The notes under the pieces were generated by a model. That model was given only the letters and a program-made list of their open reading frames with translations, had not been told where the DNA came from and ran no database searches. Source: Dehalococcoidales bacterium (GTDB lineage Bacteria > Chloroflexota > Dehalococcoidia > Dehalococcoidales > RBG-16-60-22). Taken from it: 36,311 bases of DNA. Where the stretch lies: assembly GCA_028714335.1 (NCBI GenBank), contig JAQTMM010000012.1:1-36311 (forward strand), given 5' to 3'. The translations under genes and the position numbers were made by a program. This document shows, piece by piece, positions 25,372-32,933 of this stretch; position 1 is the first letter of the stretch; every line of letters starts with the position of its first letter.

Positions 25372-25587
25372 ATGTACAAATGGCTGCCGGCATTAAAATT
25401 AACTGGCATCGGGTTTTATGTAGCAACCTGTATTGCGGGGGGCACATTTTTAGGTTGGTGGCTGGGCGATAAGCAACCGTTGTATATAATCATCGGCCTG
25501 GTAATAGGGCTGGTAATAGCTGGCTACGGAGTTTATCAGATGCTTCGCTCATTAATTAAAGAAACAAATAATCAGGAGAAACGTTAA
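25372..25587 (+). CDS. atpI: AtpI/AtpZ-family ATP synthase assembly membrane protein
   Basis: 71 residues with two transmembrane helices (about 10-30 and 36-56, IIIGLVIGLVIAGYGVYQML) joined by a short GDKQ turn, matching the AtpZ/AtpI (ATPase gene 1) family. Members help c-ring assembly or Mg2+ supply and are not part of the finished enzyme. I start at ATG 25372 (GGGGTGG upstream). Its stop overlaps the atpB start as TAATG. As the first gene of the operon it supports the identity of the whole cluster. Confidence 0.82.
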   Translation: MYKWLPALKLTGIGFYVATCIAGGTFLGWWLGDKQPLYIIIGLVIGLVIAGYGVYQMLRSLIKETNNQEKR

Positions 25588-26588
25588 TGGCCGAGCCTAA
25601 GAAGCGCGGCTGTCTTGGTTGTTCTTTACCTATAGTTATTATTGTAGCTATTGTTGCCATCGGCATCGTGGTTATCGGCTTCTTAGCCGGTCCCATCGGG
25701 CAGGCGATGTTCCACCTCGACCTTCCTTCGTGGATAGTCGTAGAAAAACCGGCAATCCACCTGGCGGCGCCGCACCTTTTTGAGATAGGCGGCTTTCCCA
25801 TCACCAATACCATGCTGGCTGGCTGGTTCACCGTTATTTTCCTGGTCGTCGGCAGCTGGCTGATTACCCGCCGCATGAAAATCGTCCCCAATCGCATTCA
25901 GGTTATCTTTGAATTTCTCCTCGGCTGGATTTACGACCTCTGTGAAAGCGTCGCCGGTAAAGAGAACGGGCGCAAGTTTTTCCCCGTCGTTTGCACCATC
26001 TTCCTGTTTGTAGCTTTTAACGCCTGGTTGAGTCTGATACCCGGCTTTGGCTCTATTTTAGTAGGCGGTGGCGGCCATGAGTATGAATTATTACGCGGCG
26101 CCAACACCGACCTTAATACCCCTCTCGCTATAGCGCTGGTGTCCTGCGTTTTTGTGGCGTTTTATGGCATGAAATCTATCGGCTTTAGCTGGGTTAAGCA
26201 GTATTTTAATTTTGGGCCTCTTTTGCGCAGCATCGATGGGATATTCCGGGGAAAGCTCAATTTTATGGATATTTTCTCCAACTTTGTTAACGCCTTCGTC
26301 GGCGGGTTGGAATTTTTGAGTATGCTTATCCGCATCATTAGTTTTACCTTCCGTCTCTTCGGCAACATGACCGCCGGTGAAATTCTGGTGGTTATCGTCG
26401 CCTTCCTTGTCCCCATGGCGATGAGTTGGGTCGTTTATGGCTTTGAATTATTCGTCGGCTTTATCCAGGCTCTGGTGTTTGCCGGCTTAACCCTCGTCTT
26501 CGTGACGATGGCGGTTGCCTCTCATGAAGGCGAATCACACGAAAATAAAAATACAGAAGAAAAGGAATTACTTAAGGAGGGAACATAA
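25587..26588 (+). CDS. atpB: F-type ATP synthase subunit a
   Basis: 333-residue membrane subunit of Fo that forms the proton half-channels against the c-ring. The essential Arg is R256 in FTFRLFGNMTAGE. There are several hydrophobic segments, the first near 14-34. It is longer than typical bacterial subunit a (about 240-280) because of an extended N-terminus (1-70) and a Gly-rich loop (GGGGHEYELL) near 160-168. The N-terminus has a Cys pair (RGCLGCS). Start and stop codons both overlap the neighbours by one base (TAATG), a mark of tight coupling. Confidence 0.95.
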   Translation: MAEPKKRGCLGCSLPIVIIVAIVAIGIVVIGFLAGPIGQAMFHLDLPSWIVVEKPAIHLAAPHLFEIGGFPITNTMLAGWFTVIFLVVGSWLITRRMKIVPNRIQVIFEFLLGWIYDLCESVAGKENGRKFFPVVCTIFLFVAFNAWLSLIPGFGSILVGGGGHEYELLRGANTDLNTPLAIALVSCVFVAFYGMKSIGFSWVKQYFNFGPLLRSIDGIFRGKLNFMDIFSNFVNAFVGGLEFLSMLIRIISFTFRLFGNMTAGEILVVIVAFLVPMAMSWVVYGFELFVGFIQALVFAGLTLVFVTMAVASHEGESHENKNTEEKELLKEGT

Positions 26589-26818
26589 TGGACGCAGAAG
26601 CAATGAAAATGCTGGCAGTAGGTCTGGTCATGGGTCTGGGGGCATTAGGTCCCGGTCTCGGTATCGGCATCCTCGGCTACGGCGCTATGCAGGGTCTGGC
26701 GCGCAATCCTGAAGCCAGGGGCCCGATTATGACCAACATGTTAATCGCCATCGCTATGGCCGAAGCTATCGCTATTTACGCTCTGGTTGTGGCCATCATG
26801 CTCGGCTTCGTATTCTAA
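26588..26818 (+). CDS. atpE: F-type ATP synthase subunit c
   Basis: 76-residue two-helix proteolipid of the rotor ring. Helix 1 has the Gly repeat (GLGALGPGLGIGILGYG), the polar loop is ARNPEA around 38-43, and helix 2 carries the ion-binding Glu59 in AMAEAIAIYAL. Residues that bind Na+ in sodium-type rings are missing: Ile replaces the helix-1 Gln and Ala follows Glu59 where Na+ types have Ser or Thr. This points to proton coupling. AAGGAGG precedes the ATG. Confidence 0.96.
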   Translation: MDAEAMKMLAVGLVMGLGALGPGLGIGILGYGAMQGLARNPEARGPIMTNMLIAIAMAEAIAIYALVVAIMLGFVF

Positions 26819-26862
26819 TCCGGCGGGACATTGAATCAACGTAAGTAATATTGGGGGAAAAT

Positions 26863-26976
26863 ATGGAAAATGAAGGATTACCCAATTTCATCTCGATTAT
26901 CATCGGCGCGGTAATTGTCGGCGTCATCGTCTTTGCCGGCATCCTGCTCCACGCCGTCCTGACGATGCCCAAGTAA
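26863..26976 (+). CDS. 37-residue single-helix membrane peptide inside the atp operon
   Basis: Small ORF between atpE and atpF: ATG at 26863, TAA at 26974-26976. The product starts MENEGLPNFIS, continues as one hydrophobic helix (IIIGAVIVGVIVFAGILL), and ends HAVLTMPK. A GGGGGAAA ribosome site precedes the ATG. Without it the atpE-atpF gap would be 196 bases in an operon whose neighbouring genes overlap. The charge pattern (acidic N-terminus, Lys at the C-terminus) is that of a single-pass peptide. I recognise no family. It could be a small accessory Fo subunit or assembly factor, but only position supports that. Confidence 0.68.
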   Translation: MENEGLPNFISIIIGAVIVGVIVFAGILLHAVLTMPK

Positions 26977-27014: not shown

Positions 27015-27524
27015 ATGGGTGGAATATCTGAACTAGGCATAAACTGGGGAGTGCTGGTAACGCAGATTGTGACCTTCGTCATTCTGCTGGTGCTCCTGCG
27101 CGTTGTCGCCTACAAGCCTTTGATGAAGATGCTCGATGAGCGCTCCAGGCGCGTTAAGGATAGCTTGGAGCAGGCTGAAGCTGTGAAGGCTCAATCGGCA
27201 AAAACCGAGGAAGAGCTTAAGAAACAGCTGGAGCAGGCTGGCCGTGAAAGCCAGGAACGCATTGAGCGCGCCATCAAGGCTGGCGAAGAAATTAAGACTA
27301 AAGCGCAGGAAGACGCTAAGAAGGAAGCCGAAGGACTGCTCGTCCGGGCGCGCGAGGAAATCAAGCGCGAGCGTGACGAAGCTGTTGACGGCGTGCGCCG
27401 TGAATTTGCCGATCTTACGGTTCTGGCGGCGGGCAAGGTCATTGAAAAGTCTTTAGACAAAAAAGAGCACCGCGAGCTTATTGATAAAGTACTCGAAGAA
27501 AGCACTAACCTTAAGAAAAACTAA
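27015..27524 (+). CDS. atpF: F-type ATP synthase subunit b
   Basis: 169 residues: one N-terminal transmembrane helix (about 8-30, INWGVLVTQIVTFVILLVLL) followed by a long charged coiled coil (about 40-145) forming the peripheral stalk that holds F1 static. Length and layout are standard. AAGGGGG precedes the ATG. A second b-type subunit (b') is not present. Confidence 0.95.
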   Translation: MGGISELGINWGVLVTQIVTFVILLVLLRVVAYKPLMKMLDERSRRVKDSLEQAEAVKAQSAKTEEELKKQLEQAGRESQERIERAIKAGEEIKTKAQEDAKKEAEGLLVRAREEIKRERDEAVDGVRREFADLTVLAAGKVIEKSLDKKEHRELIDKVLEESTNLKKN

Positions 27525-27537
27525 TTAAGCAGGCAAT

Positions 27538-28083
27538 ATGGGAAAAAAAGCCAACGCCCGGCGCTACGCTCAAGCCGTTTTTGAGATAGCGCTGGAAAAG
27601 AAAGCACTGGATAGGTGGCAAACCGACCTTGATAACATCGTTGCCGCCGTCAGCGAGGGCGACTTTCTCGCCGCGCTGGAAAGCCCCAGGATAACACTGG
27701 AGGCTAAATCCGGCTTTCTTAAAAAGCGTTTAGGCGCCGTCAACCCCCTGGCGACGAATCTCATGTTGCTGTTGATATCCCGTTCATCCATCGGCATCAT
27801 CGGTGAAATAGCCAAGGAATATAAAAACCTGTTGAACGCCTACCGGGGAATTGAAGAAGCGGAAATTACAACCGCCATCCCCATTGACGCTGATGAACAA
27901 AAGAAACTGGCGGACCGGCTGGGCGCTTTAGAGAACGCTAAAGTCGTAGTTACAACGCAGGTCAGCCCGGATATCTTAGGCGGTGTGGTCGTTAGAGTCG
28001 GCGGCAAACTGCTCGACGGTTCCACCCGCAATAAACTTGCCACGTTAAAAAGAGAACTTGAGACAGGCGAAAGGGTAAAATAA
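27538..28083 (+). CDS. atpH: F-type ATP synthase subunit delta
   Basis: 181-residue OSCP/delta subunit linking the b stalk to the top of F1. KANARRYAQAVFEIALEK at the N-terminus and the C-terminal ILGGVVVRVGGKLLDGS block are diagnostic. It follows atpF by 13 bases. After its stop come two dispersed repeats before atpA. Confidence 0.94.
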   Translation: MGKKANARRYAQAVFEIALEKKALDRWQTDLDNIVAAVSEGDFLAALESPRITLEAKSGFLKKRLGAVNPLATNLMLLLISRSSIGIIGEIAKEYKNLLNAYRGIEEAEITTAIPIDADEQKKLADRLGALENAKVVVTTQVSPDILGGVVVRVGGKLLDGSTRNKLATLKRELETGERVK

Positions 28084-28087
28084 AAAT

Positions 28088-28120
28088 CCCTCTCCCTTGA
28101 CGGGAGAGGGCAGGGTGAGA
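28088..28120. repeat. dispersed repeat, GGGAGAGG hairpin family, copy 3 (atpH-atpA gap)
   Basis: CCCTCTCCCTTGACGGGAGA then GGGCAGGGTGAGAA. The stem CCCTCTCCC/GGGAGAGGG is near perfect. It lies 4 bases after the atpH stop and may form a strong RNA hairpin in the operon message. Confidence 0.82.
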
Positions 28121-28136
28121 ATACATTCCTTTTCTT

Positions 28137-28170
28137 GTCATTCCAGCGTAGGCTGGAGTCCAGGGGGTTG
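28137..28170. repeat. dispersed repeat, TGTCATTCCAGC family, copy 2 (atpH-atpA gap)
   Basis: TGTCATTCCAGCGTAGGCTG then GAGTCCA, nearly identical to 12162-12190, with the CCAGC/GCTGG hairpin. It ends about 30 bases before the atpA ATG. Confidence 0.82.
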
Positions 28171-28199
28171 GGTATAGAGAATCAAAGGAGGCAACGCCT

Positions 28200-29779: not shown

Positions 29780-30130
29780 ATGAAAGAAAAAGAAATGGTT
29801 TATTGCGGTCTCGTGTGTGCTGAATGCGGCGCCTATATCGCCACCATGAAAAACGATGATAAACTGCGCCAGGCAACGGCGGAGAGGTGGGCTAAGCAGT
29901 ACAACATCCCCGTCATGCCGGTCTCCGCTGTGAACTGCACCAGCTGTGATTCCCAGGGTGTTAAAATGGGTCATTGCGCCACGTGCCAGATACGCACGTG
30001 TGCCAAAGAAAAAGGCTTGGAAAACTGCGGGTATTGTGTAGATTATCCGTGCGCCCAACTAGAGTTCGTTATTAAGCACTATCCAGTCGCCAGAGAGAGA
30101 TTAGACGCTATAAACAAGGGGAAGAAATAG
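29780..30130 (+). CDS. DUF3795 cysteine-rich protein inserted between atpA and atpG
   Basis: 116 residues with 11 Cys at 9, 13, 16, 53, 56, 66, 69, 74, 83, 86 and 91. The pattern (YCGLVCAECGAY, NCTSCDSQG, HCATCQIRTCA, NCGYCVDYPC) matches the DUF3795 family, thought to bind zinc or an Fe-S cluster; function unknown. It is soluble, with no membrane helix. It ends 3 bases before atpG, so it is almost certainly co-transcribed with the ATP synthase genes and may be coupled to atpG. DUF3795 is not a standard atp operon gene. It may be a passenger, or it may affect the enzyme, for example by redox sensing. GGGGG precedes the ATG. Confidence 0.87.
   Translation: MKEKEMVYCGLVCAECGAYIATMKNDDKLRQATAERWAKQYNIPVMPVSAVNCTSCDSQGVKMGHCATCQIRTCAKEKGLENCGYCVDYPCAQLEFVIKHYPVARERLDAINKGKK

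Positions 30131-31042: not shown

Positions 31043-32933
<1,891 letters not shown>

Follow-up and report, generated by a model that had tools for sequence, protein, structure and literature searches.

What occupies the gap that separates the genes for subunits c and b in the ATP synthase operon of this Dehalococcoidales genome, and could its product belong to the membrane sector of the enzyme? The window, meaning the whole stretch of 36,311 nucleotides that was analyzed, is contig C12 of a draft genome (1.74 Mb, 89% complete). On its plus strand the operon is headed by an AtpI/ATPase_gene1-type two-helix protein (25372-25587, PF09527), followed by atpB (a subunit, 333 aa, 25587-26588, PF00119), atpE (c subunit, 76 aa, 26588-26818, PF00137) and atpF (b subunit, 169 aa, 27015-27524, PF00430), and Pfam assigned an OSCP/delta subunit to the same neighborhood. 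AtpB carries an additional N-terminal hydrophobic helix with a KRGCLGCS-like motif (25587-25720) that is common to many relatives. The atpI/atpB and atpB/atpE pairs overlap by one base, and 196 bp separate the end of atpE (26818) from the start of atpF (27015), the largest gap in this part of the operon. The original prediction had called this gap unusually large among overlapping genes; that description fits the upstream genes but not the downstream ones, where atpH and atpA are also separated, by 116 bp. Dispersed repeats are present in the atpH-atpA spacer (28082-28199) and in the atpG-atpD spacer (31043-31080), and the atpH-atpA spacer has 17 other partial matches in the genome. A gene for a DUF3795 protein (29780-30130, plus strand) lies between atpA and atpG within the operon.

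Within the atpE-atpF gap an open reading frame of 37 codons plus stop is present on the plus strand at 26863-26976, as had been predicted. It starts with ATG, encodes MENEGLPNFISIIIGAVIVGVIVFAGILLHAVLTMPK and is preceded by a Shine-Dalgarno-like stretch, TTGGGGGAAAAT (26851-26862), a ribosome site of the GGGGGA type where relatives have AGGAGG or AAGGGGG. The named relatives found by an AtpE scan were mostly MAGs of Dehalococcoidia or Dehalococcoidales.

Conservation of the frame was assessed by a tblastn search with the 37-residue peptide, covering 61 relatives and 393 genomes of the class. Identity ranged from 84-86% within the genus to about 35-45% across the class. The short-ORF matches that were accepted had a start codon and a ribosome site of their own and were located in the atpE-atpF gap. 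Of the 138 distinct atp loci examined, 63, nearly all from Dehalococcoidia, had a homologue of 33-45 aa in exactly this slot, following atpE and preceding atpF; this bears out the proposed conservation of position and frame among relatives. A 36-member profile placed the small gene at atpE-atpF in at least 40 of the 393 class genomes. A wider profile searched against 400 genomes of the phylum gave nothing convincing outside the class, the matches there being frames of 62-574 codons with no atpE nearby. In many genomes residues 11-36 also matched frames of about 160-180 aa; these were rejected as a different, longer membrane protein encoded away from the atp operon.

The 63 homologues carry the marks of a translated gene. 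All 63 start with ATG, and all 63 have an SD-like motif compared with 22% of background 15-mers. Substitutions were counted in seven close pairs, which were picked on AtpB-E-F identity and had unsaturated synonymous sites; a pair set picked on the identity of the peptide itself was discarded because such a choice favors low dN/dS values. The seven pairs held 52.5 synonymous changes over 204 sites and 26.5 non-synonymous changes over 537 sites, giving a dN/dS of 0.16 (chi-square p of about 1e-14), and the changes fell 18/7/54 over the three codon positions. In the same pairs the flanking spacer differed by 18-19%, with length changes in several. The raw pN/pS over all 28 pairs was higher (0.45), owing to saturation at synonymous sites and to a rate of evolution in the peptide above that of its neighbors. 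The dN/dS of 0.16 therefore identifies a protein-coding gene under strong purifying selection, the constraint that had been proposed as a check, and together with the same-place homologues and their start and ribosome sites it sets this frame apart from a chance ORF. We conclude that this is a real, conserved gene for a small membrane protein, found at this place in many uncultured Dehalococcoidia.

The small gene is present in some relatives and absent from others. In the 63 loci that carry the ORF the atpE-atpF gap measured 139-295 bp (median 184); the 75 lacking it mostly had gaps of 3-100 bp, with ten at 130-255 bp. In several of these ten (L084, L137, L155, L218 and L232) AtpF is extended by a signal peptide or lipobox, which accounts for the length of the gap, and one (L208) contains another small hydrophobic ORF. 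Some families of the same order do not carry the small gene, and in one of them (f9) the gap was 15-24 bp in the three genomes examined. On a tree of AtpB, AtpE and AtpF, presence required 9 changes as compared to an average of 46 when labels were shuffled; because presence follows this tree, the small gene has been inherited with the operon. One early gain followed by repeated loss would be the simplest story, and the change count itself gives no direction. RBG_13_51_18 has two atp operons (L081 and L122) with a copy of the small gene in both.

Two further features of these operons were noted. In one clade of Dehalococcoidia, AtpF carries an N-terminal signal peptide with a lipobox, for example MRQRIGLAITIILLSLLLSSC-DAAQELG, and is thus probably a lipoprotein there (L084, L174, L135, L137, L155, L040 and L094), while AtpF in L218 and L232 has a cleavable-looking signal peptide instead of the lipobox; AtpF signal peptides occur both with and without the small gene. 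The ORF in the atpE-atpF gap of L208 (genome G141) is an unrelated-looking membrane ORF of 36 aa, MIEILQLIWLIVGVLIIVAIGASLGLALFFWLTKER, with no Pfam match; it may be analogous to the small gene, or homologous but diverged very far.

The predicted protein begins M-x-x-x-G-[LI]-P and continues into a hydrophobic helix. The consensus of the 63 members reads M-[EGQD]-[QNED]-[ED]-G-[LI]-P-x-x-I, with P7 conserved in 100%, G5 in 84%, A16 in 79%, G20 in 86%, A31 in 75% and G26 in 70% (A in 24%). AlphaFold2 predicted one helix over residues 8-33 with a mean pLDDT of 93, in agreement with the single hydrophobic helix originally predicted. The N-tail has on average 1.6 acidic and 0.06 basic residues and the C-end 0.02 acidic and 0.3 basic residues. 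An acidic N-tail and a neutral to slightly basic C-end suggest, by the positive-inside rule, that the topology is likely N-out and C-in. The conserved residues did not mark a significant single face of the helix (moment test p above 0.5).

Profile searches against Pfam, NCBIfam and PDB families gave no match, so that the product is unannotated in the sense of matching no curated family. The original prediction knew of no standard atp gene at this position. The c, b and AtpI/AtpZ/ATPase_gene1 models were all unmatched. The product has a single helix as compared to the two-helix hairpin of the c subunit (PF00137; hhalign to AtpE 0.2%), is 37 aa long without the cytoplasmic domain of the b subunit (PF00430; hhalign probability 0.3%), and has one helix where AtpI/AtpZ/ATPase_gene1 proteins have two or more (hhalign probability 0.4%). 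Descent from another atp helix was rejected, as hhalign to AtpB, the AtpB N-terminal helix, AtpE, AtpF and AtpI gave at most 1% in every case. The CydX family (YbgT_YccB) gave no profile match, and the gene lies in an atp and not a cyd operon. Weak Pfam matches to T4SS_pilin (E 0.025) and PsbX (E 0.55) fell far short of the cut-offs. A search of open-licence papers returned no description of a gene at the atpE-atpF place, and given that scope this is weak evidence of novelty. At fewer than 50 aa, with one helix, under purifying selection and encoded in the operon of a complex, the product has the sequence features of a single-span accessory protein of bioenergetic complexes.

Because of the strict linkage to atpE-atpF, the likeliest reading is that the product, with its one membrane span, is an Fo accessory or assembly protein that would stabilize or tune Fo. 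We give this a probability of roughly 0.6, on the basis of position, conservation and predicted topology. Translated from a ribosome site of its own in the atpE-atpF gap, the protein would span the inner membrane once and join the Fo membrane sector, where it would serve as a small accessory subunit or help while the c-ring, a and b are being assembled. Its acidic N-terminus with the G-[LI]-P motif would lie outside the membrane, and the helix may pack on other Fo helices through the small residues A16, G20, G26 and A31. Fo would be stabilized or tuned by the peptide while catalysis would not depend on it, since many relatives live without the small gene; absence from many related atp operons likewise argues that it is not essential to the ATP synthase. 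We infer the orientation, the binding to Fo and the role from sequence.

Covariation of presence of the small gene with residues of subunits a, b and c was assessed using independent contrasts, of which only 6 were supported. When each column was coded by the majority residue of the group without the gene, c-subunit residues appeared enriched (Mann-Whitney p 0.0005), but under a neutral coding the effect was gone (p 0.73). The enrichment depended on how columns were coded and was dropped, and we therefore make no claim on a binding site. The original prediction of an Fo accessory subunit or assembly factor is favored by the linkage to atpE-atpF; covariation with a, b or c residues gave it no support, and two homologues outside the operon count against it.

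These two homologues lie away from atp genes in genomes G306 (contig C291) and G085 (contig C101), beside NuoE, NuoF and formate-dehydrogenase-like genes, the last encoding a molybdopterin oxidoreductase with an NADH-dehydrogenase-G-like N-terminus. The loci that hold the two copies are L239 (3-113) and L240 (9397-9507), on the minus strand in each. The G085 copy is co-directional with and upstream of the Nuo-like genes and the G306 copy is divergent. G306 has an atpE-atpF gap of its own without the small gene, and the atp contig of G085 ends just past atpE. The protein therefore need not be encoded in the atp operon, and these copies, which reflect either relocation of the gene or a paralogue that works with a different complex, are the main caution against a role in Fo only. 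They would fit a more widely used membrane protein, perhaps one that stabilizes the membrane itself or a number of its energy-converting complexes, whose gene is placed in the atp operon merely so that synthesis keeps step with that of ATP synthase; the G306 gap without the small gene would fit this too. However, every other accepted member is at atpE-atpF and both exceptions come from draft MAGs, with contamination of 8% in G306 and 3% in G085, and we consider wider use unlikely.

The same two copies weigh against an effect of translation alone. The ORF sits between the gene of a high-copy and that of a low-copy subunit, has its own strong SD and in many loci lies a short distance from both neighbors, so it could act as a leader or spacer whose translation, and not its product, balances c, at about ten copies, against b, at two copies, through atpE-atpF translational coupling. 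The amino acids also speak against such a role, with purifying selection, an invariant proline and conserved glycines, and we regard it as improbable. A small hydrophobic toxin or stress peptide resembling type I toxins would have this size and single helix, and one member weakly matched the Fst toxin model (E 0.54), but the fixed place next to atpE, the strong SD, the inheritance with the operon and the lack of notable RNA structure in the gap make this very improbable. Short hydrophobic ORFs readily arise by chance and many chance ORFs of this length occur in the window, but a non-coding reading, in which the frame arose by chance within a spacer or regulatory RNA, is in effect refuted by the ATG and SD counts, the dN/dS and codon-position bias, and the gap RNA, which folds less well than shuffled sequences (z +1.55) and has no Rfam match. 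On the fold and Rfam results an RNA element was rejected as well.

The bacterial F-type ATP synthase is usually seen as a fixed set of eight subunits, and few extra small proteins of this enzyme are known. A conserved additional membrane peptide with its gene between those of the c-ring and the stalk, across a large class that is mostly uncultured, would point to bacterial ATP synthases having also evolved small accessory helices of the sort known in cytochrome bd and in mitochondrial Fo. More tentatively, the product of the small gene may be an additional stoichiometric single-helix subunit of Fo, a ninth kind, present across much of Dehalococcoidia and repeatedly lost; this is possible but somewhat doubtful. 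The natural pattern of presence and absence makes the role testable across operons with and without the small gene.

Among known systems, AtpI, AtpZ and AtpR are small non-catalytic membrane proteins of atp operons, and AtpI helps c-ring assembly. Unlike the product of the small gene they have two or more helices and are usually encoded at the operon head; the window has its own AtpI-type gene (25372-25587), and the small protein matches no AtpI/AtpZ/AtpR model. Mitochondrial A6L/subunit 8 is a single-helix accessory subunit of Fo, and the likeness is in kind only, with no similarity of the small protein to any solved chain. Proteins of the TorE/NapE family are comparable in being small membrane proteins encoded with the respiratory system they help assemble (PMC6134056), but have another partner and no sequence match. 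The presence of CydX is coupled to the Q-loop of its partner. CydX is a 37-aa single-helix subunit of cytochrome bd with homologues that vary strongly and are often unannotated (PMC4325964), and has high functional plasticity (PMC6005532). It has no sequence relation to the small protein, belongs to another complex and is an established subunit, whereas the small protein is a candidate. The two are alike in size, in having one hydrophobic helix, in sharing an operon with the genes of a bioenergetic membrane complex, in a variable sequence with few conserved residues, in frequent lack of annotation and in absence from some lineages. The gene is so far nameless, and its product would most likely play for Fo a part like that of CydX in cytochrome bd.
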